From NCBI RefSeq assembly GCF_033097365.1, contig NZ_AP028461.1, positions 11,187,501 through 11,251,500 on the forward strand: a stretch of 64,000 nucleotides of DNA. The letters run 5' to 3'. The translations under genes and the position numbers were made by a program. Below, piece by piece: positions 11,147 to 42,102 of this stretch. This stretch comes from Actinoplanes sichuanensis. GTDB taxonomy: Bacteria; Actinomycetota; Actinomycetes; Mycobacteriales; Micromonosporaceae. The first letter of the stretch is position 1. Every line of letters starts with the position of its first letter. Below the pieces are notes generated by a model that saw nothing but the letters and a program-made list of their open reading frames with translations, ran no database searches and had not been told where the DNA came from.

Positions 11147-14100
11147 ATGCGTGAACGCCCAGCCCACCGGGCAGTAGAAGAGGTCCCGTTCCGGCTATGG
11201 GGTCCGGGTCGACTCCATGCGTTCATATCGATCGCGGCCGCCACCGCGGTCGGACTGGTACCGGGGATGGCGCACGCGGCACCGGAGACGAAGATCCTGT
11301 CCGGGCCGGTGGTGAACATCGGTGCGCCGGACCGTGAGACGGTCGCCGAGGGCGATCAGATCGTCTTCCCGGTGACACTCGTGGGCGGAAGCGACCCGGT
11401 CGACGTGCAGTTCGAGATCATCGACGGCTCGACCACCGCCGACGACTACGAACCCGTGACCGGCTCGGTGGTTCTCGATCCGGTGACCACCCCGACCTCG
11501 CAGATCGAGGTGCGGACGACCGCAGACGTCACCTCCGAGGCGGCCGCGGAGACCTTCTCGATCCGCGTCGTCGACACCGAGGAGGTCACCCCGGGCGACG
11601 CCGGAGCCGGCCGGATCCTCGACCCGGTCCTCTCGGTGACGCCGTCCGCGACGATCCCGGAGGGCGACGACGATCATGAGCAGACCTTCGACGTCTCGCT
11701 CAACGTGGGTTTCCGGGACGGCCTCGATCTCGGCTACGCGGCCACCGCGGACAGCGCGATCGACGACCTTCATTTCGAGGCTGCGAGCGGACCGCTGAGT
11801 TTCGCCGCCGACAGCACCAGCGCAGAGTTCGACGTGACCATCCACGGCGATCAGCGACACGGCGGCGCGAACCGGGCCTTCAGCCTCGACCTGTCCGGTT
11901 TCAGTAAACCGAACGTGGTGTGGCCGGGGCCGCAGACGATCACCATCGAGGACGATGAGAGCCTGCCGGCGGTCACCTCGGTGACCGGCGAGCCGTCGAC
12001 GACCGAGGGCGACTCCGGTCCCACCACGGTGACCTACACGGTGGAACTGACCGAGGCCAGTACCGAGCAGATCACGCTCGACGTCACCGGCACCGACGGA
12101 AGCGCGGAGCAGGCCGGCGACGGTCCGGGGTCCTACGATTACGCGGTCCCCGGCGAGGTGGTCTTCGAACCCGGCGAGACGAGCAAGACCTTCTCCGTGA
12201 CCGTCAACGGCGACGAGGTCCTCGAGGAACGGGAGACGGCCACCATCACCGTCACGCCCAGAGACGGGGACCCGGCCATCGGCCCGGCGGCGAAATCCGC
12301 CGCTCTCGTCATCGAGAACGACGACCACCCGATGGTCCTGACCTTCGGTGGGTTCGACCAGTCCGAGGGCAGCTCCGATGTCCCGGTGACGCTCGACGTG
12401 GCGGGCGCCTTCGAAGGGCCCCTGCACTGGACGGCGTCTGTTCGCGGCGTCTCGACGGACGCCTTCGACAGCGCCGAGAGCGATGACTACGACGCGGGCG
12501 ACCTGGACCTGGAGGGCGACCTCACCTCCGGTGACAGCCAGATCAGCCTGGGCACGATGGATGTCCTGCTCGGTAGCGCCGACGAGTTCGACGAGGCGAT
12601 CGAGTTCACCGTCGACGTCGACGGTGTGGGTTCGGTCAGCGGCATCGGCATCATCCGCGACTCGCCCGACCACACCGAACCCCGGCTCGAAATGGTGGAC
12701 CAGGCCGTCTTCAAGGAGGACCGGGAAGCGGGTCTGCCGGTCCGGGTCGAGTTCGATCCGTCCGCCGGCAACCTGGCCACTACCAGTGAGAAGCCGATCA
12801 AGGTCGGATATTCGACCGCGGACGGCTCGGCGCTCGCCGCCGACGACTACACGGCCGTGACCGGCGCCACGGTGACGTTGTCGGACGAACCGCCGTTCAC
12901 AGAGCTACCCCTGACCCTGAAGCGGGACGAGGAACCCGAGGACGATGAGAGTTTCACCGTCAGCCTCGCCGACCCGGAGAATGCGACCCTGGGCTCGGTG
13001 TCGTCCACGGCGGTGACGATCACCGAGAAATCGCCGACGATCGCCGTCGCCGACGCCCCCGCGGTCGCCGAGGGCAACGTGTTGAAGTTCCCGGTGACGC
13101 TGAGCGAGCCGGTTGCTGAGCCGCTCAAGGTGCGGGTGGTCACGCAGGGCGGAACCGCCGAATCGGGGAGCGACTACCCGGCGGTCGACACCGAGATCGA
13201 GATACCGGCCTTGGCCCAGACCGCGGTCGTCGAGGTGCCGACGATCCCCGACGGCGAGGCCGAGTCGGATCCGGAGACGGTCAGCGTCAAGATCATCGCA
13301 CCGGAGGGCGTCACGCTCGGCACCGACACCGCCACCGGCGACATCATCGATGCCGCTCTCACGGTCTCCGCCGACGATGACACCTGGGAGGGGAACTCCT
13401 GGGATCACCCGTACACCTTCACCGTCAAGTCCAATGTCGCCTTCGACACCGATGTGAAGGTCGGCTACGAGATCGTCGGTAGGACCGCCACCGCGGACGA
13501 GGACTTCAGTGCGGTGTCGCCGGGCGAGTTGCTGTTCTCGGCGGGTGACACCGAGAAACGGATCACCGTGATGGTCGCCGGAGACGAGGTGCCCGAGGGC
13601 GACGAGACCTTCACCATCCGGCTGACCGGGGTCACCGGGACGACAGCCGCCGTCGCCGGGGTGACCGGCTACGAATTCACCATCATCAACGACGAGCAGA
13701 TGCCGGCGATCATGTCGGTGACCGGCCCGGACTCGCTGGTCGAGGGGGATGGCCCCACCGAGCTCACCTACACGGTCGAACTGGACCAGCCCACGCCTGT
13801 CCCGGTCGTCCTGGCGGTGGAGGGCAGCCCCTACGGTTCCGCCGTGCCGACCGACGACGGGGTGGGCGGGAAGGACTACAGCTTCCCGGAGACGATGACC
13901 ATCGATGCGGGACAGAGTTCGGGGACGGTCACCGTGACGATCAACGGTGACACGGTCTTCGAAGAGGACGAGTTCACGTCGGTCGTCGTGAAACCCCGGG
14001 ACGGCGACACGAGTGTGCGTGGAACCGATCTGGCGAATCTCACCATCACCAACGACGACCCCCTGCCGGCGCTGGCCTTCGTCGGATTCGACGAGACCGA

Positions 14101-19211: not shown

Positions 19212-19289
19212 ACCGACGGCGTTGCCTGTTTCCACAGCTCAGCGCGCCTCTCGAGTCATCCGGTCAGTCGCTGAAGGAGACAGGACGTC

Positions 19290-22200
19290 ATGCGCGAACG
19301 TAAGCACCGGCAGCCCCCGTTCCGGTTGTGGGCGCCCGCCCGATTTCGTGCCCTGGTCTCGATCGTCGCCGCGGCGGCCGCCGGGCTGACCCCGGCCGCC
19401 GCGGTCCTGCTCCCGGCCTCGCCCGCCTACGGAGCGTCGCCGGGCGACATCATCATCGAGGCCGACATCGACGACGCCGAGGCCGGCGCGTTCATCTTCG
19501 AGATCCGCCGGGTCGGGCCGACCAGCACCCGGCTGGATCTCACCTACGAGACGGTCACGGTTCCGGAGACGCCGTTCACCGGTCCGCTGCACCAGGCGAC
19601 CCCGGGTGTCGACTTCACCGCGATCGTCGGCGGCGTACAGACCTTCGAACCCAGCAGCCGGGACTCGGTCAAACGGATCACCGTCTACGGCAAGGCCGAC
19701 ACCAACGACGAGAACAACGAGGTTTTCGGACTCGCCCTGACGAACGTCCAGGACACCGCCAACAACCTGGCGATCGGCCGGCTCATCGACGACGACGACC
19801 CGCCGACCTACTCCTTCGGCAGCGCCGGAACGGTCGGTGAGAGCGCCGGCTCGGTCACCACCACGGCGACGCTGTCGGCATGGTCGGACTTCCCGGTCAC
19901 CATCCCCTACAAGACCACCGACGGGACCGCCAAGGACGGCGAGGACTACACCGCCACCTCGGGCACACTCTCGTTCGCAGCCGGAGACGCGACCGAGGAC
20001 ATCGTGGTGCCGATCCTCGGCGACACCAAACACGAGAACACCACCGAGAGCTTCACCGTCGAGAGCACAGGGGTGCCGACCGGCGTCACCGTCGGTCCCG
20101 CGTCGAGGACCATCGACATCACCGACGACGACGCCGCGCCGACGGTGAGCATCGGCACCGCCGGATCGGCCCGCGAAGGTGACACGCTGAACTTCCCGGT
20201 CACCATCAGCGCCGAGTCGCGGCTGCCGGTCACGGTCACGGCCGACACGACGGGCGGCGGTTCGGCGACCGCGACCGACGACTTCACCGCGGTGACCGGC
20301 GCCACCGTCACCGTGCCCGCCGGGCAGACCACCGCGAACCTGCCGGTGGTCACGAAAACCGACGGCGTCGACGAGGTCGTGGCGGAGACGGTGGAGGTCA
20401 CCCTCACCAATCCGGCCGGCGCCACCCTCGGGACCGCCACGAACACCGGTTCCATCGTCGACAACATCGTCACGGTCACCCCGGACACCGCGATCGCCGA
20501 GGGCAGCGCCACCCACGACCAGGTCTTCAGCGTCACGCTCCCGACCGCGTCGGCCGTGCCGATCGCGCTCGGCTACACCGTCGCCGCGGGCAGCGCCACG
20601 GACGGCACCGACTTCGACGCCTCGACCGGCACCCTGAACTTCGCCCCGGGCGACCTGACCAAGAAGATCACGGTGCCGGTCCGGGGCGACACCACGTACG
20701 AAGCCGGCGAGACGTTCACCATCACCCTCACCAGCGGTGGCGAGGTGACCGGTGGTCTCGGCCCGTACACGTTCACCATCCCCAACGACGACCTCAAACC
20801 CACCGTCACCGGGGTCAGCAGCGTCTCCCGGGCGGAAGGGGACACGACCGACACGGCCACCTTCACCGCGACCATCTCCAACCCGAGCAACGAACCCGTC
20901 ACCCTCGACATCACCTCCGGTGATGTGACCGCGGCCGAGGCGCTCACCGGCCTGGGCAGCGACGACTTCGACATCATCGACAGCAGCGTGGACGTCCCGG
21001 CCGGCGCCACCACCGTGGGCTTCGGGGTACGGGTCAACGGCGACGCGATCTACGAGGGCACCGAGACCGCCAACCTCACGGCCACGGTGAATGGCAGCGA
21101 GTCGGGAGCGGTGCAGGGCAGCACCGCCTCCGGGGTCCTCACCCTCACCAACGACGACGCGGTCCCGGTCGTGACCTTCGGCAACGTCACCGCGCCGGAG
21201 AACACCCCGGCACAGGCGCTGTCGGCGACGGTCAGCGGCACCGCACAGGCCGCGATCCCGTTCACGGTGACCGTGGCCGACGGGACCGCCGAACCGGGCG
21301 ACTACAACGCCGGCAGCGTCGTGCCGTCCGGCAACATCGCACCCGGCGCGACCAGTGTGAACCTCGGCACGATCGCCCTGGGCGACGACACCGTCGACGA
21401 CCAGGTCGACGCGGTCGACGTCACGATCAGCCCGACCGGCCTGGTACCGAAGACCGCCACCGTGACGATCACCGACGATGCGGCCGACACCGAGCCGAAG
21501 GTGGTGGGGACGGCCGCGGTCGGCCCGATCGGGGAGAACGCCGGCCCGGCGCTCGTACCGGTCAACCTGGTCTTCGCCGGTGTCTCGTCGGCACAGAGCA
21601 CCGAGCACACCATCACGGTCGACTACGCGACCAGCCCGAACACGGCGAAGGCGACCACCGACTACACGACCGCCACCGGCACGTTGACGTTCACCCCCGG
21701 CCAGACCGCGAAGAACGTCAGCGTGACCCTCGCCGACGACAACTTCTTCGAGGTCAACGAGGACTTCACGGTCGGTCTGTCCAATGCCGTCGGCGCCGCC
21801 GCGTTGGAACAGGCCACCGCCACGGTCACGGTGTCCGACAACGACGGGTCGCCTCCGACGTTCACGGTGACGCAGAACGGGCCGGTCACCGAGGGCGGGG
21901 TGGCCACCTTCACCATCACGCTCACCGGTCCGGCGGCCATCGACACGCCGTTCACCATCACCCACACTCCCGGCACCGCGGTCGAGACCTCGACCGGGCA
22001 GCTCGGTGACGACGACTACGACGCGCCGACCGGCACGGTGACGGTGCTGAAGGACGCGACCACGGCCACGTTCACGGTGCAGACCAACCCCGACACCCTT
22101 TACGAGGGCACGCAGACGGCCACCGTCTCGGCCGAGCGCGACGGCGTGACGAGTGTGGCTGCCGGAGCGCAGAACGGGACGCTGACGATCACCGACGAGG

Positions 22201-25200
22201 ATCCGATCCCGACGCTCGTGCTGACCACCAGTGATCATCTCGAGGGCACGCCGTTCAACATCACCGCCACCAGCACCGGCGTGACCGAGAGCAACATGAC
22301 CTACACGGTCGCGGTGGCGGGCGACAGCGCGAACAGCGCCGATCCGGCGGAGAGCGGCGACTTCACCGGCACCACCGCGACGGTCGTCCGGAACGGCGGA
22401 ACGGCGACCAGCACGCCGACGACTCTGATCGCGGTCACCCCGCTCGGCGACACCATCGACGAGAACACCGAGAACATCCGGGCGAGCGTCAACAACGACA
22501 CCCTGAGCCGGGCCGACTCGCAGCAGGTCTACGGAATCCTCGACGCCGTCTCGAACATGTCGCCGGAATTGACGTTCGGGCCGCCCGTCACGGTCGCCGA
22601 GACCGGTCCCGCGGTCGTGCCGGTGACGAAGACCTGGGCCGACCTCGACCCGAACGACAACGACGCCTCGTCGACGGAGAAGACGATCACCGTGCATTAC
22701 CAGGCGGTGGACGGTACGGCGAAGGTGACCGACGACTACACCTCGGCGACCGCATCAGGTGACCTGAGTTTCGCCATGGGCGATTCGAGTAAGAACATCT
22801 CGGTCGGTCTCAACGACGACGGCGTCTACGAACTGAATGAGAGTTTCCTGGTCCGGCTGTCGGCCGCGGACGGCGCGACGATTCCGGTGGCGGATCAGAC
22901 GGTCAACATCACCGACAACGACTCCGCGGCCCGGCCCACCTTCACGGTGGACCCGGTGGGCGGCGCGACGGTGGCCGAGGGCGGCACCGCCCAATACAAG
23001 ATCAAGCTGAGTGCGGCGTCGTTGACCGCCACCACGTTCAACCTGACGATGTCCGGTGGGGAGGCCCAGTCCGGAGCGATGACCCCCGGTGGTGACGACT
23101 ACACCGCGCCGACGACACCGGTCACCATCAACGCCGGTGATCTCGAGGCGACGATCTCGATCCCGGTGGCCGCCGACGGCGTCTACGAGGGCACCGAGAC
23201 CCGGAACCTGGCCGTGGCGCTCGACGGCAGCGAGAACGACGTCACCGGCACCACCCAGAACCGCACGATCACCATCACCGACGGCGATCCGATGCCGACT
23301 CTGGCGCTCAACTCCGGTAACGCCACCGAGGGCACCCCGTTCGCGATCACCGCGACCCAGACCGGGATCGCCGAGGACGACATCGTCTACAGCGTGGCGG
23401 CGGCCGGGGACTCCTCGGGCGGTGACGACCCCGCGGAGGGTGGCGACTTCTCCGTCCCGGCCGGGACGATCACCGTCACCGGCGGCACCGACACCGTCAC
23501 CAGTCCACTCAAGACGGTCACCGTCAACGGCGACCTGATCGACGAGAACACCGAGAAGTTCACCGTCGTCGTCACCAACGACACCGCGGGCGCGGAGGCC
23601 GGCCGGCAGACCTACGGCATCCTCGACGCGGCCGCGAACATGTCCCCCGAGCTGGTTTTCGGACCGCCCGTCACGGTCACCGAGAGCGACGGCAACGCCG
23701 TCATCCCGGTCTCCAGGAGCTGGGCCGCACTGGCCGGCGGCGGCAACACCGCCACCTCCACCGAGAAGACGATCACGGTGCAGGCACAGACCTCCGACGG
23801 TACGGCCGTCCAGCCCGCCGACTACACGACGACCTCGTCAGCGCTGAGCTTCGCGCCCGGCGACACCACGAAGAACGTCACCGTGCCGATCGCCCCCGAC
23901 GGCGTCTACGAGCTGACCGAGACGTTCAACGTCGGCCTCTCCCAGGTGGTCGGGGCCACCGTCCCGACCGCGAGCGACACGGTCACGATCACCGACGACG
24001 ACCCGACCGCCCGGCCGACGTTCTCCCTCGATCCAGCGGCCGGTACCACCGTGGCCGAGGGCGGCACAGTGGTCTACAAGGTGAAACTGAGTGCCGCAGC
24101 GATCACCAACACCATCTTCGACGTGACCCTGACCGGCGGGAACGCCCAGTCCGGTGGTTCTGATCCGGGAGAGGCCGACTACACCGCCCCGTCCGCGACG
24201 CTCACCATCAACGCCGGGCTGACCGAGGGCACCATCTCGATCCCGGTGTCGGCCGACAACGTCTACGAGGGCGACGAGACGCGGACTCTCAACGTGGCGC
24301 TCGCCTCCGGTCAGACCGATGTGACCGGAAGCGTCCAGAGCCAGACCATCACCATCACCGACGGAGACTCGGTTCCGGCGATCACGCTGGCCTCCGCCAC
24401 GGGTGCCGAGAACACCGCGGCGCCCGTGGCCGCCACTCCGACCGGTGTGGCCCAGCGCAACATGATCTACACGCTGACCGTCGCGGGCGACAGCGCCAAC
24501 GGTGCGAACCCGGCCGAGAGCGGCGACTACACGCACGCCCTCACCACGTTCACCCTGCCCGGCGGCTCGACGTCGGGAGTGCCCGTGCCGGTCGGGTCGA
24601 TCAACCTCGCCGCCGACACCATCGACGAGGAGACCGAGACCGTCAAGGTCAACGCCCACAACGACACCGCCGCCATCACCGACGCGGCCGGGTTGTACAC
24701 GATCACCGACGACGTCAACGACACGGCGCCGACGGTGAATCTCGCGTCGTTGACCACCGTGGCGGAGGCGGCGGGTACGGCTTCGGTGACGGCCACCCTC
24801 GACTTCGCCACGAGTTCCGCCGCAACCACGGAGAAGTCCGTCACCGTCGGCTACACCACCGCCCCCGGTACGGCCACCGCCGGCGACGACTACACCACCA
24901 CCACGAACACGCTGTCCTTCACCCCGGGCACCAACAGCGCGAACCTCAGCGTGCCGATCGCACCCGACTCGCTGTACGAGACGAACGAACGTTTCGACGT
25001 GACGCTGTCGAGCCCGGTGAACGCCACCCTGGGCACCGCCACGAACAGTGTGGAGATCACCGACGACGACGCCTCGGCCATCCCCGGCTTCACGGTGTCG
25101 GCGAACCAGACGGTGACCGAGGGTGCCGGAGTGACCGCCGACTTCACGGTCACGCTGGACAGTCCGGCGGCCGGAACGATCGACTTCGACGCGGCGATCG

Positions 25201-28200
25201 TCGATGTCACCACGACCGACGGCGGCACGCTCAACCTCGGCACCGACGACTACACCGCACCGATCGGGGACTTCACGATCGGAAAGGACCAGCGGACCGC
25301 GACGGTCAGCATCCCGATCGGCAACGACGCCGCCTACGAGGGCACCGAAAGCCTGACGCTGCAGATCAAACTGGACTCCGGCGAGACTCTGGCGACCGGC
25401 CCGCAGGTCGACCGTACCCTCACCATCGCCGACGACGAGACCGTGCCCACCCTGACCATGGTCGCCGCGCAAGCGGCGGAGAACGCCCCCGTGGCGGTCA
25501 CCGCCACCACCAGCGGTCTCGCCGAACGAGCCATGTCCTACACGCTGACGCTGGCCGGCGAGGCGGCCCCGGGCGGGAACGCGGCCGAGGGCGCCGACTT
25601 CACCGACAGCGCCGTCGCCGGGACGGTACCCGGCGGCACCACCGCCGGAACGCCGGTCACGCTACGGTCGGTGCCGGCCGCCGCGGACACCATCGACGAG
25701 CCGGACGAGACGTTCCGGGTCACCGCGCACAACGACACCTACTCCACCCCGGACGTGTCCGAGGTCTACACCATCACCGACGACCCCAACGACACCGCTC
25801 CGACGGTGAACCTCGCGTCGCCGACCACGGTCGGTGAGGCCGCCGGTCCGGCGTCGGTGCCGGTCACCCTGGACTTCACCGGCAGTTCCGCCGCGACCAC
25901 CGAAAAGGCGGTCACAGCCGGTTACACCACCAGCGCCGGTACGGCCACCGCCGGCGACGACTACACCAGCTCCGCGGGCACCGTGTCGTTCACCCCGGGG
26001 AACAACAGCGCGAACATCAGCGTGCCGATCGTTTCGGACGGTCTCTTCGAGACGAACGAGCGCTTCGACGTGACCCTCGCGAACCCGGCGAACGCCACCC
26101 TCGGCACGGCCACGAACAGTGTCGAGATCACCGACGACGACGGCAGCGCCATCCCCGGGTTCACGGTGTCGGCGAACCCGACGGTCGCCGAGGGTGCGGG
26201 CGCCGTGGCCGAACTGACCGTGACGCTGGACAGCCCGGCCGCCGACACGATCGACTTCGACGCGACGGTCTCGGACATCACCGCCACCCGCGGCGGCACG
26301 CTGAACGCGGGCAAGGACGACTACACCGCGCCGACGGTGGACTTCACGATCGCGAAGGACCAGCGAACCGCGAAGGTCAGCATCCCGATCGGCAACGACA
26401 CGGTCTACGAGGGCGACGAGACGTTCACCGTGCAGATCGCCCGGGACTCCGGGGAGACTCTCGCGACGGGGGCGCCGGTCAGCCGTACCGTCACCATCAC
26501 CGACGACGAGACCGTGCCCACCCTGACGATGGTCGCCGCGCAAGCGGCGGAGAACGCCTCCCTGGCGGTCACCGCGACCACGACCGGCGTCGCCGAACGG
26601 GACATGACGTACGCGTTGGCGCTGGGCGGGGACGCGACCGGCAGCAACAACGCGGCCGAGAGCGCCGACTACACCGACAACGCCGGAACCACCACGGTCA
26701 ACGGCGGGACCCCGTCAGGCTCGACGGTGAACCTGGGATCCGTACCGCTGTCGGCTGACAAGGTGGATGAGCCGGACGAGACCATCAAGGCGACCGTCAC
26801 CAACAGCACCTACACGACAGGCGCGGTGAACGGCCTCTACACGATCACCGACGATGCCGCCGACCTGCCGCCGTCGGTGTCGCTCGGCCCGATCACGGTC
26901 TCCGAGGCCCTCCCCGCCGCGGCCGTCCCGGTCACCCTGACCTTCCTGGCGGGCAACGACGCCACCTCGTCCGAGCAGGCCGTGACCATCACACCGACGA
27001 TCCTCGCGGTGACCGCCGGCCCCGGTGACTACGGCAACCCGGCCAGCCCGCAGACGATCGCGGCCGGCGCCACCACCGGTTCGATCACCGTGCCCCTCAT
27101 CGACGACAAGCTTCGCGAGCCCGACGAGCAGTTCATCGTGCGGGCCACCGCGGTCGGACCGACCGGAGCCACCATCGGTACCGATTCGGGCACCGTCACC
27201 ATCACCGACGACGACCAGAGCATCGCCCAGCCCACCTTCTCGGTGGGTGCGGCATCGGTGAGCGAGGGCGGTGGCGCGGCCACCTTCACCGTCGCGCTCA
27301 GCGAAGCCGTGACGGGGGACGTCGACCTCACCGTCACCATCCAGGACGGCACCGCGACGGACGCGGCGAAGGGGATCGGCGGTGACGACTACGACCCGCC
27401 GGCCGGCACGCTGCGGATCAAAGCCGGCGCCCGGAGCGGCACGTTCACCGTCCCGATCAAGCCCGACACGGTCTTCGAGAACGACGAGACGGCCAAGGTC
27501 ACGGTCGCCCTGGCGGCCGGCGAGACCGATGCCACCGGCGCCGCCAAGGAGGCGGCCCTGACCATCGGCAACGACGACTCCCGGCCGATGCTGAGCCTCA
27601 CCCCCGCCCTGTCCGGTGTCGAGGGCGACTTCCTGTCGATCACCGGCACCATCGACGGCATCACCCAGCCCGACCTCAGCTACGGCTCGCTCGAAGTACG
27701 CCCCGACACCACCGGCGACCCGGCCGAGGCAGACGACTACAAGTTGCTCGGCAACAACGTCGTCGTACCGGGCGGATCCGCCTCCGGCAGCCGCGTCGAC
27801 GTCGCCTCGATCGAACTGCGTGACGACACCGTCGACGAGGCCACCGAGGCCCTCGACCTCACCCTCGGCCTCCGCAAGTCGAGCGTCCGGATCACCGACG
27901 ACCCGCGGGACGGCGCCCCGACCCTGTCGATCAGCGACGAATCGATCCGGGAGAACGAGCAGAGCGTCGATCTGAAGATCACCCGCAAACTCGCGGACGG
28001 CACCACCGGCACCGAACGCAGCATCTCCGTCCCCTGGCGCACGGTCGCCGGATCCGCGCAGGACGGCACGGACTTCACCGCGAGCAGCGGTACGGCCGTC
28101 ATCGAGCCCGGCCGCGACTCCGCCACCATCAGCGTGCCGATCATCGGAGACTCGGCGAAGGAGGAGGACCAGGACTTCGTCGTGCGGCTCGGCAACGCGA

Positions 28201-28811
28201 CACCCAGCGACGTCGAGGTCACCAAACCGTCCGGCACCGTCACCATCGAAGACGACGACACCGCCGTCAAGCCGACCCTCAACGCGGCGACCGGCACCAC
28301 CACCGGCAGCCAGCGGGTCCGGCTCTCCGGCACCGCCGCCCCCGGCACCACCGTCGAGCTGCTCAGCGCTCCCGGTGTCACCGGCACCGGCGGTTACCGG
28401 ACCGTCCTCACCGCCGAGGCCGACGACGACGGCAAATTCAGCTTCAACCCCAACTTCACCCAGGGATATCGGGTGTACGTGCGCGCCGACGGCCTGGTCT
28501 CGCCGGTGCGCACCATCCAGGTGCGGCAGGACCCGTCGATCGCCACCGCCTCGCCCGCTGCCGGGACCGCCCGGATCACCGTCACCGGAGACCCCGACCG
28601 GGCCGGGCAGGCGGTCACCGTGCAGCGGTTGAACAGCGGCGACTGGGACACCGTGACGACCGGCAAGCTCGGCGCCGACGGCACGTTCACGGCGACACAG
28701 CGTGGGCTGCGCTCCGGTCGTACGTACACATATCGGGCGGTCATCGCGGCGTCGACGTCACTCGGCATTCTCGCCGGCACGTCACCGACCCGACCGGTGA
28801 AGGTCCGCTGA
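19290..28811 (+). CDS. Giant secreted Calx-beta repeat protein (3173 aa), paralog 2
   Basis: About 25 Calx-beta-type domains: two divergent N-terminal domains, one five-domain cassette, then six copies of a three-domain cassette (c: FTVxxxxxVxEG...; d: PTLxxxxxxxEN...DPAExxDF; e: VxxxxxVxEx...ATSTEK...DYTT). The N-terminus carries the family signal motif PPFRLWAPARFRALVS before an Ala-rich core, with a probable cleavage near AYGA-SPG. The final 180 residues are the shared C-terminal two-lobe module (SGTAAPGTTVELLSAPG..., GYRVYVRADGLVSPVRTIQV..., ITVTGDPDRAGQAVTVQRL), ending in RPVKVR. Two cassettes are nearly identical copies 1071 bp apart. The third paralog starts 30 bp after the stop, so these two are probably one transcript. 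Tandem DNA repeats make assembly error possible. Confidence 0.93.
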   Translation: MRERKHRQPPFRLWAPARFRALVSIVAAAAAGLTPAAAVLLPASPAYGASPGDIIIEADIDDAEAGAFIFEIRRVGPTSTRLDLTYETVTVPETPFTGPLHQATPGVDFTAIVGGVQTFEPSSRDSVKRITVYGKADTNDENNEVFGLALTNVQDTANNLAIGRLIDDDDPPTYSFGSAGTVGESAGSVTTTATLSAWSDFPVTIPYKTTDGTAKDGEDYTATSGTLSFAAGDATEDIVVPILGDTKHENTTESFTVESTGVPTGVTVGPASRTIDITDDDAAPTVSIGTAGSAREGDTLNFPVTISAESRLPVTVTADTTGGGSATATDDFTAVTGATVTVPAGQTTANLPVVTKTDGVDEVVAETVEVTLTNPAGATLGTATNTGSIVDNIVTVTPDTAIAEGSATHDQVFSVTLPTASAVPIALGYTVAAGSATDGTDFDASTGTLNFAPGDLTKKITVPVRGDTTYEAGETFTITLTSGGEVTGGLGPYTFTIPNDDLKPTVTGVSSVSRAEGDTTDTATFTATISNPSNEPVTLDITSGDVTAAEALTGLGSDDFDIIDSSVDVPAGATTVGFGVRVNGDAIYEGTETANLTATVNGSESGAVQGSTASGVLTLTNDDAVPVVTFGNVTAPENTPAQALSATVSGTAQAAIPFTVTVADGTAEPGDYNAGSVVPSGNIAPGATSVNLGTIALGDDTVDDQVDAVDVTISPTGLVPKTATVTITDDAADTEPKVVGTAAVGPIGENAGPALVPVNLVFAGVSSAQSTEHTITVDYATSPNTAKATTDYTTATGTLTFTPGQTAKNVSVTLADDNFFEVNEDFTVGLSNAVGAAALEQATATVTVSDNDGSPPTFTVTQNGPVTEGGVATFTITLTGPAAIDTPFTITHTPGTAVETSTGQLGDDDYDAPTGTVTVLKDATTATFTVQTNPDTLYEGTQTATVSAERDGVTSVAAGAQNGTLTITDEDPIPTLVLTTSDHLEGTPFNITATSTGVTESNMTYTVAVAGDSANSADPAESGDFTGTTATVVRNGGTATSTPTTLIAVTPLGDTIDENTENIRASVNNDTLSRADSQQVYGILDAVSNMSPELTFGPPVTVAETGPAVVPVTKTWADLDPNDNDASSTEKTITVHYQAVDGTAKVTDDYTSATASGDLSFAMGDSSKNISVGLNDDGVYELNESFLVRLSAADGATIPVADQTVNITDNDSAARPTFTVDPVGGATVAEGGTAQYKIKLSAASLTATTFNLTMSGGEAQSGAMTPGGDDYTAPTTPVTINAGDLEATISIPVAADGVYEGTETRNLAVALDGSENDVTGTTQNRTITITDGDPMPTLALNSGNATEGTPFAITATQTGIAEDDIVYSVAAAGDSSGGDDPAEGGDFSVPAGTITVTGGTDTVTSPLKTVTVNGDLIDENTEKFTVVVTNDTAGAEAGRQTYGILDAAANMSPELVFGPPVTVTESDGNAVIPVSRSWAALAGGGNTATSTEKTITVQAQTSDGTAVQPADYTTTSSALSFAPGDTTKNVTVPIAPDGVYELTETFNVGLSQVVGATVPTASDTVTITDDDPTARPTFSLDPAAGTTVAEGGTVVYKVKLSAAAITNTIFDVTLTGGNAQSGGSDPGEADYTAPSATLTINAGLTEGTISIPVSADNVYEGDETRTLNVALASGQTDVTGSVQSQTITITDGDSVPAITLASATGAENTAAPVAATPTGVAQRNMIYTLTVAGDSANGANPAESGDYTHALTTFTLPGGSTSGVPVPVGSINLAADTIDEETETVKVNAHNDTAAITDAAGLYTITDDVNDTAPTVNLASLTTVAEAAGTASVTATLDFATSSAATTEKSVTVGYTTAPGTATAGDDYTTTTNTLSFTPGTNSANLSVPIAPDSLYETNERFDVTLSSPVNATLGTATNSVEITDDDASAIPGFTVSANQTVTEGAGVTADFTVTLDSPAAGTIDFDAAIVDVTTTDGGTLNLGTDDYTAPIGDFTIGKDQRTATVSIPIGNDAAYEGTESLTLQIKLDSGETLATGPQVDRTLTIADDETVPTLTMVAAQAAENAPVAVTATTSGLAERAMSYTLTLAGEAAPGGNAAEGADFTDSAVAGTVPGGTTAGTPVTLRSVPAAADTIDEPDETFRVTAHNDTYSTPDVSEVYTITDDPNDTAPTVNLASPTTVGEAAGPASVPVTLDFTGSSAATTEKAVTAGYTTSAGTATAGDDYTSSAGTVSFTPGNNSANISVPIVSDGLFETNERFDVTLANPANATLGTATNSVEITDDDGSAIPGFTVSANPTVAEGAGAVAELTVTLDSPAADTIDFDATVSDITATRGGTLNAGKDDYTAPTVDFTIAKDQRTAKVSIPIGNDTVYEGDETFTVQIARDSGETLATGAPVSRTVTITDDETVPTLTMVAAQAAENASLAVTATTTGVAERDMTYALALGGDATGSNNAAESADYTDNAGTTTVNGGTPSGSTVNLGSVPLSADKVDEPDETIKATVTNSTYTTGAVNGLYTITDDAADLPPSVSLGPITVSEALPAAAVPVTLTFLAGNDATSSEQAVTITPTILAVTAGPGDYGNPASPQTIAAGATTGSITVPLIDDKLREPDEQFIVRATAVGPTGATIGTDSGTVTITDDDQSIAQPTFSVGAASVSEGGGAATFTVALSEAVTGDVDLTVTIQDGTATDAAKGIGGDDYDPPAGTLRIKAGARSGTFTVPIKPDTVFENDETAKVTVALAAGETDATGAAKEAALTIGNDDSRPMLSLTPALSGVEGDFLSITGTIDGITQPDLSYGSLEVRPDTTGDPAEADDYKLLGNNVVVPGGSASGSRVDVASIELRDDTVDEATEALDLTLGLRKSSVRITDDPRDGAPTLSISDESIRENEQSVDLKITRKLADGTTGTERSISVPWRTVAGSAQDGTDFTASSGTAVIEPGRDSATISVPIIGDSAKEEDQDFVVRLGNATPSDVEVTKPSGTVTIEDDDTAVKPTLNAATGTTTGSQRVRLSGTAAPGTTVELLSAPGVTGTGGYRTVLTAEADDDGKFSFNPNFTQGYRVYVRADGLVSPVRTIQVRQDPSIATASPAAGTARITVTGDPDRAGQAVTVQRLNSGDWDTVTTGKLGADGTFTATQRGLRSGRTYTYRAVIAASTSLGILAGTSPTRPVKVR
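24731..26872 (+). repeat. Tandem duplication of a 1071-bp (357-codon) domain cassette
   Basis: Copy 1 (about 24731-25801) and copy 2 (about 25802-26872) encode the same three Calx-beta domains in the order e-c-d. Fixed points lie exactly 1071 bp apart: GACGGTGAA (24731/25802), TTCACGGTGTCGGCGAAC (25089/26160) and CCGTGCCCACCCTGAC (25441/26512), the last followed by an almost unchanged CGCGCAAGCGGCGGAGAACGCC. Similarity fades at the far end of copy 2, so the boundaries are approximate. The copy number is in frame. Confidence 0.8.
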
Positions 28812-38349: not shown

Positions 38350-38606
38350 CCGTTTCCCGGGACGTCCACCCCGGGCGGCGAGTACAGTTCGCCGCTGGTC
38401 AGGGTGCCGTCGCGGGCCGGTCAGAGCCACGCGACCAGGCCGTTTCCCGGCTATGTGAAGGACTTTCTACCGAAAAACCCGTTCCGCCGCGAACGGTCCG
38501 ATACGCCGGTTAGATTGCAGTTGGCGCCGCCTCACGCGGATCATCAAATCCGGTGTTTGCGCTGCTGAGAGCCGGTTTCGAATCGGCACCCCGAACCGCC
38601 CTAGGT
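38350..38606 (+). promoter_or_regulatory. Promoter and upstream leader of the fourth Calx-beta gene
   Basis: This non-coding stretch holds a TAGATT -10-like hexamer at 38511-38516, the same as in the promoters of the first two paralogs, but no TCATAA lies 17 bases upstream. Further upstream are a second small inverted repeat (GCGGCGA 38375-38381 with TCGCCGC 38389-38395) and a direct repeat CCGTTTCCCGG at 38350 and 38440. If transcription starts near 38523, about 85 nt precede the riboswitch aptamer; no structure in that part was recognised. Confidence 0.45.
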
Positions 38607-38688
38607 GCGGTACCCGAACAGGCAAACCCGTCGCGAGACGGGGACGCAAAGCCAGGGGCCTCCCCGCTGGAGGTAGCCCAGCCGCCGA
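38607..38688 (+). promoter_or_regulatory. GEMM-I cyclic-dinucleotide riboswitch
   Basis: The aptamer matches the GEMM-I fold element by element. P2 is GGC (38621-38623) with GCC (38651-38653). AAA is followed by a 6-bp stem CCCGTC/GACGGG (38627-38632/38637-38642) capped by a GNRA loop GCGA (38633-38636). The invariant internal strand GACGCAAA is at 38643-38650. P3 is a short hairpin CCTCC/GGAGG (38659-38663/38669-38673), then GTAGC (38673-38677). P1 closes with GCGGT (38607-38611) and GCCGC (38681-38685), then CGA. The ribosome binding site GAAGGAG (38687-38693) directly abuts P1, so control of translation initiation is likely. The base before the P2 GGC is A38620, where c-di-GMP-selective members such as Vc2 have G20; A there is linked to cGAMP recognition. 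Confidence 0.9.
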
Positions 38689-38704
38689 AGGAGACAGGAA
38701 GAGA

Positions 38705-41700
38705 ATGCGTCATCGACCCATCCAAACGGCGCCGCGAGAGCGGGTGCCGTTCACGCTCTGGGGACGGAAGCGGATCCGGACAGTGCTGGCGACGATTGCC
38801 GCCTCGGCTGCTGGTCTGATCCCGGTGGCCCTGGTCAGCTCCCCAGCCCACGCGAGCGTCGACAACCTCATCATCAGCGACGCCGGCGCCTGGGAAGGCT
38901 CCAAGGTCACCTTCACCCTGACCTACACCGGCGCCGCAGCCGCCACCTTCAAGACCATCGCCACCGCGGTGACCGGTGTTGGAACCGGGCATGCTGTCGC
39001 AGGCGGAACCGACTACACGACCGCGCCCAGCCGGACGAGTTACACCTTCCCCGGCACGGCTTCCGGCGGAACCAACACCGTGACCGTGACCGTGGACACG
39101 GTCGCGGATGGTGACAACGCTGATGAGACATTCAGCCTCGTTGTGACGGACGCGCTGGACAACACCAAGACCGCCACCGGCACCATCTGGGCGGTCGCGG
39201 ACGCGGCCTACCCCGTGTTCACCCTTTCGCCGAGCGCTGCGTCGGTCGCCGAGACCGCGTCCAAGAACGCTTCGGGCGCGACAGTCCAAAAGACTGTCAC
39301 CGTGACGGCGACGTTGGACAAGACCCTTGCCCACCCGGTGACCCTGCCGGTGGCGACGGTCAGCGCCGGCGCCACGATCGCGGATGCGGTCTCCACCGGC
39401 GGTGAGCTCCGTGACTACACGGCACTGCCGTCGACGGCGACGATCACCATTCCCGAGTACTCCTACACGGGCAGCGTGACCGTCGAGCTCTACGACGACG
39501 CCGTCGACGAGACGAACTCCGGTGGTCAGAGTTTCAAGGTGCAGTCCGCGGGCACACCGGTGATCGTCAAGTCCGGGGTCACCGACTCCGATAAAAGCAC
39601 GATCACTATCACGGACGACGATCCGGCGCCGGTGGCGTCCATCGGTAACGCTCCGGCGGCGGATGAAGGGGGCTACCTCAACTACCCCTTGACGCTGGAT
39701 CGGCAGTCCGACTCGACGTCGCTGAACGTCAAGTACTTGACGGGCGACGGAACGACGCTTCCCGACTCGAACCCGGCAGTCGCCGCCGACCTCGACCCGG
39801 CCGTTACCGTGGCCGCGGACGTGCCGATCGCCGCGTACTCGAAGGGCCGCCTGATCGCGGTCAAGGCGAAGGACGACACCGCCTTCGAGGGGCCCGAGAA
39901 CACCAAGGTGACGATCTCGACGCCGACCGGCGTGACGATCGGTACCGCCACCGGCACCGGCGTCATCAACGACGGCGACTCCGGTCCCACGCTGGACCTG
40001 ACCACCGCGGGTGACCCGGCCGACGGCCTTCCGAGCGGCACCACCTTCAAGGAGCTCGCGACCGGCGAGAACGTCCGTAACATCGCGGTCACCCTGAACG
40101 CCTCCACGGCCGGCCCCTTCCAGGTGCCGATCAAGGTCGACTACTCCTTCAAGGACGGCACCGCGCTGAACGGTGTCGACTACAAGGGCACCGCGGGCAG
40201 CTTCACCATCCCGGTCGGTGCGACCCGGGCGACATGGAGCGGCAAGATCCCGGTCACGATCATCGGTGACACCATCGACGAGACCGGCAACGAGACGTTC
40301 GACGTGGTGCTGAGCAGCAGCACCAAGACGGTCGCCGAGGCCACCAAGACGATCACGATCACCGAGGACCCGACGGACGACGTCGCGCCGACCTGGACTA
40401 CTGCGGACGTCTCGATCGTCGAGGGCAACACCGGCACCACGACCGCCAAGGTGCCGATCACCCTGAGCGGTCCGGCGGCGGCGGATGTGCTGTTCACCGC
40501 AACGTTCAACACGCCGGGCAGCGCAACCGAGACCGGTGTCAACTCGGGCCTCACTGTCGGCGACAACGACTATGACCTGCCGGCCGTGCGCAGCACGACG
40601 ATCAAGGCCGGTCAGCAGTCGGCTTTCCTCGAATTCCCGATCAACGGAGACACGGTCTTCGAACGGGACGAGGCATTCATCGTCGACATCGACACCACCA
40701 GCACCGTGGTCAATGACAACCTCACAGCAGATGTCCTGCACTCGGCGCGAGTGGCGATCACTAACGACGACGCGAAGCCGACGGTGAACCTCACCCAGAT
40801 CAGCGGGACCGAGAGCGGTTCGATCCGGGTAGCCGGCACGCTCACCGGTGTCTCGCAGTACCCCTACGACCTGAGCCTCGTCGTGGCGGGTAGTGGAGAC
40901 AACCCGGCGACTCCGGGCACGGACTTCGAGCTGCCGGCCGGATTCACCACCACGCCCATCAAGATCACCAAGGGGCAGACCGCACTGACCGGAACGCTGG
41001 GTGACATCTACCTGGCGCCGGACGACGCCGACGAGCCTCTCGAGACGTTCAGCATCGAGGTCAAGGAGACCACGGCATCGCCGCAGGGCTTCACCGATTC
41101 CACGGCCACCTTCCGGATCAATGACGACCCGGCGGACCTTCCGCCGGCGGCCTCGATCCGCGACGAGTCGATCGGTGAATGGGAGAAGTCGGTCGACGTC
41201 CACGTGGACTTCGCCTTCGACGAGAACACCAAGTCCACCACGCAGACCGTGAACATCCCCTGGTGGACGGTTCCGGGCAGCGCTCGCGAGGACGAGGACT
41301 ACAAGGGCTCGAAGGGCATGATCACCCTCAAGCCCGGTGACCTCAGCGCCGTGATCAACGTTCCCGTCATCGACGACAAGTTGAAGGAGAACGACGAGGA
41401 GTTCCACGTCAAGCTGGGCGTCGCCACCCCGACGGGTGCGGCGGTGACCCGGGGCGACGGCACGGTCACGATCAAGTCGGAGGACAAGGCCGACCCGGTC
41501 ACCCCGACGCTGAGCGCGACCGGTCCGTCGAAGGGTGTCGGCCTGGCGAAGTTCGTCGGCACGGCCGCTCCGAACACGACGGTCGAGCTGTGGGGCGCCG
41601 CTCTCCCGGAGACCGACCCGAAGGCCTTCAAGTACATCAGCGAGACGACCGCCGACGATGACGGTTACTTCGAGCTGGCGCCGAAGTCCCTCGCCTCCGG

Positions 41701-42040
41701 CTGGGCGTTCGTCGCCCGGTCGCAGGAGATCAACTCGGCGGTCAAGACCGTCAAGGTGACGCAGCTGCCGTCCTTCTCGGCGAGCTCCTCGAAGAAGGGC
41801 AAGCTGAGCGTCTCGGTGGCGGGCAACCCGCGGATGGCCGGCCAGGCCGTCTCGGTGCAGCGTTACACCGGCGGCAAGTGGGTGACCATCGGCAAGGGCA
41901 CCACCACTGACAGCGGCTGGAAGGGCACCATCAGCGTCAAGACGAAGTCCAAGGTCACGCTGCGGGCCTGGGTCGCCGGTGACGCGAGCATGGGTATCAA
42001 CGCCGGGTACTCGGCTCAGAAGAAGGTCACCATCAAGTAA
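38705..42040 (+). CDS. Secreted Calx-beta repeat protein (1111 aa), paralog 4, riboswitch-controlled
   Basis: The smallest member of the tandem family. About seven Calx-beta-type domains, several divergent (the first, DNLIISDAGAWEGSKVTF, and the third lack parts of the acidic consensus), then the last three in the c-d-e order seen in its paralogs (IVEGNTGTTTAKVPITL; PTVNLTQISGTESG; SIRDESIGEWEKSVDV). The signal motif is VPFTLWGRKRIRTVLAT, with cleavage probably after PAHA. The C-terminal module is present but Lys-rich and more distant (GTAAPNTTVELWGA..., SVAGNPRMAGQAVSVQRY), ending KKVTIK. It starts 12 bases after the GAAGGAG that borders the riboswitch and ends at a strong terminator. It is therefore the family member directly tied to cyclic-dinucleotide levels. 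A surface or matrix role is inferred. Confidence 0.92.
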   Translation: MRHRPIQTAPRERVPFTLWGRKRIRTVLATIAASAAGLIPVALVSSPAHASVDNLIISDAGAWEGSKVTFTLTYTGAAAATFKTIATAVTGVGTGHAVAGGTDYTTAPSRTSYTFPGTASGGTNTVTVTVDTVADGDNADETFSLVVTDALDNTKTATGTIWAVADAAYPVFTLSPSAASVAETASKNASGATVQKTVTVTATLDKTLAHPVTLPVATVSAGATIADAVSTGGELRDYTALPSTATITIPEYSYTGSVTVELYDDAVDETNSGGQSFKVQSAGTPVIVKSGVTDSDKSTITITDDDPAPVASIGNAPAADEGGYLNYPLTLDRQSDSTSLNVKYLTGDGTTLPDSNPAVAADLDPAVTVAADVPIAAYSKGRLIAVKAKDDTAFEGPENTKVTISTPTGVTIGTATGTGVINDGDSGPTLDLTTAGDPADGLPSGTTFKELATGENVRNIAVTLNASTAGPFQVPIKVDYSFKDGTALNGVDYKGTAGSFTIPVGATRATWSGKIPVTIIGDTIDETGNETFDVVLSSSTKTVAEATKTITITEDPTDDVAPTWTTADVSIVEGNTGTTTAKVPITLSGPAAADVLFTATFNTPGSATETGVNSGLTVGDNDYDLPAVRSTTIKAGQQSAFLEFPINGDTVFERDEAFIVDIDTTSTVVNDNLTADVLHSARVAITNDDAKPTVNLTQISGTESGSIRVAGTLTGVSQYPYDLSLVVAGSGDNPATPGTDFELPAGFTTTPIKITKGQTALTGTLGDIYLAPDDADEPLETFSIEVKETTASPQGFTDSTATFRINDDPADLPPAASIRDESIGEWEKSVDVHVDFAFDENTKSTTQTVNIPWWTVPGSAREDEDYKGSKGMITLKPGDLSAVINVPVIDDKLKENDEEFHVKLGVATPTGAAVTRGDGTVTIKSEDKADPVTPTLSATGPSKGVGLAKFVGTAAPNTTVELWGAALPETDPKAFKYISETTADDDGYFELAPKSLASGWAFVARSQEINSAVKTVKVTQLPSFSASSSKKGKLSVSVAGNPRMAGQAVSVQRYTGGKWVTIGKGTTTDSGWKGTISVKTKSKVTLRAWVAGDASMGINAGYSAQKKVTIK

Positions 42041-42056
42041 GTCCTGGTGATACGAG

Positions 42057-42084
42057 ACGGGGGCGGCCGAGAGGCCGCCCCCGT
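42057..42084. terminator. Bidirectional terminator hairpin
   Basis: ACGGGGGCGGCC and GGCCGCCCCCGT form a perfect 12-bp stem around a GAGA loop, followed by TCCGTTGTGTG. It lies between convergent genes (Calx-beta paralog 4, stop 42040, and the ABC exporter gene, stop 42103) and should serve both. Confidence 0.85.
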
Positions 42085-42102
42085 TCCGTTGTGTGTGCCG
42101 GG

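Follow-up and report, generated by a model that had tools for sequence, protein, structure and literature searches.

The window (the whole 64,000-nucleotide stretch analysed, positions 11,187,501 to 11,251,500 of Actinoplanes sichuanensis contig NZ_AP028461.1) carries four neighbouring genes for Calx-beta paralogs, which begin at 11147, 19290, 28842 and 38705; three of the four were scanned against Pfam, while the remaining one (19290-28811) was assigned by its similar ends alone. The gene at 38705 encodes the smallest of the four proteins, with 1,111 aa against 2,665, 3,173 and 3,154 aa for its neighbours, and the word 'giant' used for it in a preliminary description of this DNA is accordingly withdrawn. 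Read by eye, VPFxLW or PPFRLW stands in the n-region of all four proteins, ahead of a signal-like segment, and the four C-terminal ends resemble one another and lack a sortase signal. The leader of the 1,111-aa gene contains a cyclic dinucleotide aptamer, whose parts are given below together with those of the flanking transcript; positions 38621, 38648 and 38685 are those that we take, by the customary numbering, to be G20, A47 and C92.

38472-38526, + strand: conserved upstream block, probably the promoter, with the -10-like hexamer TAGATT at 38511-38516 (aligned upstream regions of 61 orthologs)
38571-38587, + strand: leader hairpin GCCGGTT/AATCGGC, predicted 3' of the probable promoter and 5' of the aptamer (fold and sequence)
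38612-38690, + strand: c-di-GMP-I (GEMM-I) aptamer (Rfam covariance matches)
38615-38616, + strand: 5' strand of P1, pairing with 38686-38687 as C-G and G-C (structure alignment; register one base off the Rfam alignment)
38621, + strand: G20 equivalent, selectivity nucleotide of the c-di-GMP type (alignment and customary numbering; role of G20 from PMC10333796)
38622-38647, + strand: GC/GC helix and P2 stem-loop (alignment; GNRA loop GCGA at 38633-38636)
38648, + strand: A47 equivalent, where the RF03167 consensus has G (Rfam alignment)
38651-38682, + strand: P3 arm, containing CCTCC at 38659-38663 (alignment and structure tests)
38685, + strand: C92 equivalent (Rfam alignment, customary numbering)
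38688-38693, + strand: Shine-Dalgarno AAGGAG, immediately 3' of P1 (sequence; GGAG invariant in 51/51 distinct leaders)
38705-42040, + strand: gene probably regulated by the aptamer, 1,111-aa protein with Calx-beta domains and a signal-like N-terminus (Pfam; N-terminus by eye; ATG in 61/61 orthologs)
42057-42084, + strand: terminator-like G+C hairpin directly 3' of the stop codon (sequence; similar hairpins in 40/40 relatives, by eye)

The element at 38612-38690 is a real GEMM-I/c-di-GMP-I aptamer, with a match far beyond chance. An Infernal search of the whole 64-kb window returned RF03167 (c-di-GMP-I-GGC) on the + strand at 62.5 bits (E 2.3e-12; curated cut-off 59 bits), the best-scoring Rfam family for this aptamer, and the whole-genome search gave the same aptamer 60 bits with RF01051 (c-di-GMP-I / GEMM-I), 25 above the curated cut-off of 35 bits. 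The GEMM-I assignment made in the preliminary description is therefore borne out, by the RF01051 search that it had proposed as a check and by RF03167 alike, although its span of 38607-38688 is corrected to 38612-38690. It had also placed the aptamer before one paralog alone, which agrees with this being the one Rfam match at gathering level across the 64 kb, and had noted bases common with the leader of paralog 2; these, GAAGGAGACAGGA, do occur twice on the + strand of the window, at 19273 (before paralog 2) and at 38687. Across the 12.1-Mb genome the covariance search found two GEMM-I matches, the window aptamer and a copy at C1:8819602, as against 118 matches to the GGDEF domain. The switch is of a known, ordinary kind, soundly identified in a little-studied host, and no description of it was found in the open-licence literature searched.

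Features that define RF01051 membership are present in the aptamer, namely P2 with its GNRA loop, P3, and the conserved GACGCAAAG core. The P2 stem pairs CCCGTC (38627-38632) with GACGGG (38637-38642) around the loop GCGA, so that the six-pair stem and GNRA loop of the earlier account stand, whereas the short helix beside the ligand is GC/GC (38622-38623 with 38646-38647) and not the GGC/GCC proposed there. P2 is followed by GACGCAAA at 38643-38650 and by the GTAGC element, which the earlier account had also listed, at 38673-38677. The linker 5' of G20 is one base shorter than usual in the window subtype, if P1 is as drawn; the 3' strand of P1 occupies 38686-38687 and AAGGAG begins at 38688, in agreement with the suggestion that P1 adjoins the ribosome binding site.

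Related aptamers are widespread in the genus, where a covariance search, with filters that lose some weak matches, yielded 84 GEMM-I matches in 62/67 genomes, all of which were read. These fall into 61 class A leaders, in 61 of the 67 genomes, situated before an ortholog of the 1,111-aa gene (orthology by N-terminus), and 23 class B leaders, situated before a protein of some 130-150 aa that looks secreted, both classes occurring together in 22 genomes; the automatic split gave 60/24, and leader L041 was then moved by hand from B to A. All 61 class A genes start with ATG, and the ORFs of the 40 that were read to the stop codon encode 704 to 1,245 aa. In Actinoplanes italicus (NZ_PVMZ01000006.1) a relative of the whole protein, with 53% identity over the best segment, has the aptamer core just 5' of its gene. 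A short leader pattern with one mismatch was found in 66/67 genus genomes among the matches listed; the reversed control matched most genomes too, and the pattern is therefore uninformative on the six genomes in which class A was not matched. Matches in a wider family search (60/300 genomes) all fell within this one genus of 44 genera, with 0/233 genomes matched in the other 43 genera against 60/67 in the genus under the stricter filters used there, and a class-level search matched 43/394 genomes in 28/138 genera.

The aptamer ends 14 bases before the ATG at 38705, and the upstream block, with consensus GGTTAGATT, is common to the 61 class A upstream regions, its TAGATT lying about 100 bases 5' of the aptamer. 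This block is probably the promoter, and transcription would start near 38522. Given the promoter block upstream and the hairpin behind the stop codon, a counterpart of which was seen in each of the 40 class A genes read through to the stop, the Calx-beta gene appears to form a transcription unit of its own. A 320-aa ORF at 42091, located 3' of the hairpin and with no Pfam match, was not counted as part of the unit. A promoter motif common to class A and class B leaders was looked for and not found. The idea of a giant Calx-beta gene as constant upstream neighbour of the aptamer gene was also set aside: such a C-terminus was recognised upstream in only 7/61 loci, the window included, by a narrow C-terminal motif applied to 600 upstream bases for most of the 61 loci, and the giant Calx-beta neighbours therefore seem to be no fixed partner.

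Conservation of the predicted structure was assessed within class A and in a pooled alignment. In the 51 distinct class A leaders 96.7% of cells are paired, and three pairs changed on both sides, a count that 13/500 shuffles equalled or exceeded in sequences that vary little. The pooled alignment combined eight hand-picked representatives of the 51 distinct class A leaders, the full set of 21 distinct class B leaders and 7/19 distant leaders, the 12 distant loci outside it having no match to the core expression; here 12/23 pairs changed on both sides, with 81 such cells, values that 0/500 shuffles reached on either count, and slid controls gave at most three such pairs. P1 consists of two pairs and is paired in 83% of cells in class A against 25% in the pooled alignment, the latter, we think, because its columns are likely out of register between classes. 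RNAalifold, run on class A, paired GGC with GCC in place of P1 (3/19 pairs changed on both sides), and P1 is plausible, not proven.

The second copy in the genome (C1:8819602-8819676; L005:3603-4104) belongs with the class B leaders, scoring 55.6 bits with RF03167, under the cut-off, and 52.7 bits with RF01051, above it; it carries C20 and precedes a 136-aa secreted-looking protein with no Pfam match. At site 20 the class B leaders have G in 12/23, A in 6/23 and C in 5/23, with 11 changes on a poorly resolved protein tree and five on a flanking-DNA tree, and we know of no ligand for the C20 form. The class B protein was found in 31/67 genomes, eight of them with no recognised aptamer, and among the seven aptamer-less loci that were read, three (L189, L193 and L196) retain apparent aptamer remnants by eye, their upstream DNA keeping P2-like or 3'-end-like pieces that may reflect riboswitch decay.

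The ligand of the window aptamer is likely c-di-GMP, as predicted from its binding-site letters: site 20 is G in 61/61 class A leaders, and site 47 is A in 57/61, the window included, and G in 4/61, the count for A including four letters, unread at first, that were assigned by eye. In the genome's 118 GGDEF matches, the site of the Hypr-type serine, which we take to be the D of GHxxGD in the GGDEF domain, holds D in 115 and E in one, two being fragments without the letter, and serine in 0/118; the Hypr motif pattern occurs at 36 places in the genome, none of them, by eye, within a GGDEF range. The top rank of RF03167, whose suffix 'GGC' we take to denote binding-site letters, could place the aptamer in a separate variant class, c-di-GMP-I-GGC, with a different ligand, yet this is very unlikely: the score does exceed the RF03167 cut-off, but site 47, where the RF03167 consensus has G, is A in the window, as in most class A leaders, and the RF01051 cut-off is surpassed by 25 bits. 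The letter also interchanges among orthologous leaders, with at least three changes at site 47 on the class A gene tree (a tree built quickly under LG+G4 from the 495 N-terminal residues of each encoded protein, run without a shuffled-label control). The G47 leaders are L052, L086, L087 and L088, of which L052 is sister to the A47 leader L085 (SH-aLRT 100) and L087 to the A47 leader L082 (98); because leaders of one orthologous gene hold either letter, the A47 and G47 forms may be suggested to sense one ligand. Sensing of cGAMP, known for the GEMM-Ib aptamers of Geobacter (PMC6456294), is less likely still, as site 20 is G, not the A of GEMM-Ib, in the window and in every one of the 61 orthologous leaders; the same source reports that A20G converts a cGAMP aptamer into a c-di-GMP aptamer. 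Hypr cGAMP synthases carry a serine at the nucleobase site (PMC8835794), and none is present at that position here; c-di-GMP is reported to be favoured over cAMP-GMP by G20 together with further nucleotides (PMC10333796), and position 20 is described as a selectivity factor and not a hard filter (PMC9262584). The invariant G20 and the missing Hypr serine thus favour c-di-GMP over cGAMP, two ligands that the preliminary description had left side by side, while its broader proposal, that a cyclic dinucleotide controls the Calx-beta gene, is well supported by a leader-gene pair kept in 61/67 genomes. Decay of the window aptamer into a non-functional relic is the least probable of these alternatives; the class B leaders L189, L193 and L196 do look decayed, but in class A the core letters are invariant over the 51 distinct leaders, with stems and loops varying around them. 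We hold it unlikely, though less so, that the genus tunes one aptamer scaffold at two ligand-contact sites, with A47/G47 swaps in class A that leave the gene unchanged and would make the orphan 'GGC' type a c-di-GMP switch, and with A20 and C20 forms in class B whose ligand would be a different cyclic dinucleotide, or c-di-GMP over a shifted range; given the remnants at the three loci, relaxed selection offers an alternative to an altered choice of ligand in class B. The A47/G47 swaps and the G, A and C variants at site 20 provide natural pairs with which the ligand question can be tested for the GGC and C20 types.

With c-di-GMP as the preferred ligand, the transcript, which would span this one gene, probably carries a c-di-GMP-I riboswitch in its 5' leader, controlling a presumably secreted Calx-beta protein. 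In the proposed mechanism, the leader RNA would fold into a three-way junction and bind c-di-GMP (G20-A47-C92 type); binding would close P1, whose 3' strand ends right before the Shine-Dalgarno AAGGAG, and P1 closure would alter ribosome access to the mRNA of a protein that is presumably secreted and may act on the spore or cell surface. Control is probably exerted at the level of translation, since the Shine-Dalgarno adjoins P1 and so few bases separate the aptamer from the ATG. If the element is a riboswitch, there is a slight lean towards repression at high c-di-GMP, because P1 abuts the Shine-Dalgarno, and activation at high c-di-GMP falls a little short of an even chance. Folding was rejected as a guide to the sign, having no consistent effect over leaders: over 51 leaders, GGAG accessibility averaged 0.44 in the free RNA, 0.43 when the aptamer core was imposed and 0.46 when P1 was imposed as well; with P1 it fell below the free state in 22 leaders and rose above it in 29, and imposing core and P1 cost about 10 kcal/mol in a model that ignores tertiary contacts and ligand. 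One particular route to activation is possible but doubtful, in which the CCTCC of P3 (indeed at 38659-38663, as first reported) pairs with the GGAG of the Shine-Dalgarno when ligand is absent, and binding locks P3 and frees GGAG. Every one of the 61 class A leaders retains the CCTCC, and CUCC:GGAG pairing could form in 51/51 distinct leaders, bar a single gap in the alignment that affects two of the four pairs; since P3 also requires the one strand and the Shine-Dalgarno the other, and neither ever varies, this count carries no information. Unconstrained folds of the 61 leaders gave a mean of 0.45 CCTCC:GGAG pairs, reaching 3.9 in some relatives and with strong pairing predicted in a few (L056, L069 and L024), but only 0.01 pairs in the window. 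Precedent for activation comes from a c-di-GMP-I switch before a Bacillus surface adhesin gene, which acts as an ON switch, there by transcription (PMC7423583).

Returning to the favoured reading, of a c-di-GMP riboswitch acting on translation, the closest point of reference is Vc2, which among GEMM-I switches is the best known and which turns translation OFF with P1 as its key element (PMC9262584). The window aptamer resembles RF01051 and Vc2 in matching the whole model, in its G20, A47 and C92, and in a plausible P1 that would set translation; it differs in its actinomycete host with abundant GGDEF domains, in a P3 with CCTCC/GGAGG, in the shorter linker before G20, and in a Shine-Dalgarno directly 3' of P1, whereas the masked ribosome site of Vc2 is distant from the aptamer according to a title cited in the same source. 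The GEMM-Ib cGAMP riboswitches of Geobacter have the same fold, with A20 where the window has G20, and no Hypr-type GGDEF was found in the present genome. The Bc2/cbpA system of Bacillus also pairs a c-di-GMP-I aptamer with a surface protein gene, but it acts as a transcriptional ON switch and the adhesin that it controls carries a sortase signal (PMC7423583), unlike the short aptamer-to-ATG spacing here and a C-terminus in which no LPxTG was seen. Retention of the riboswitch before one surface-type gene across most of the genus provides a defined candidate output of the c-di-GMP network and a ready reporter. Among distant relatives, by eye, a GEMM-I aptamer in one actinomycete of the same taxonomic class (L124:199-308) precedes the gene of a small secreted protein resembling the class B protein, and three distant loci near GEMM-I aptamers (L127, L136 and L137) encode a protein like the inner-membrane component of type IV pilus or type II secretion systems.
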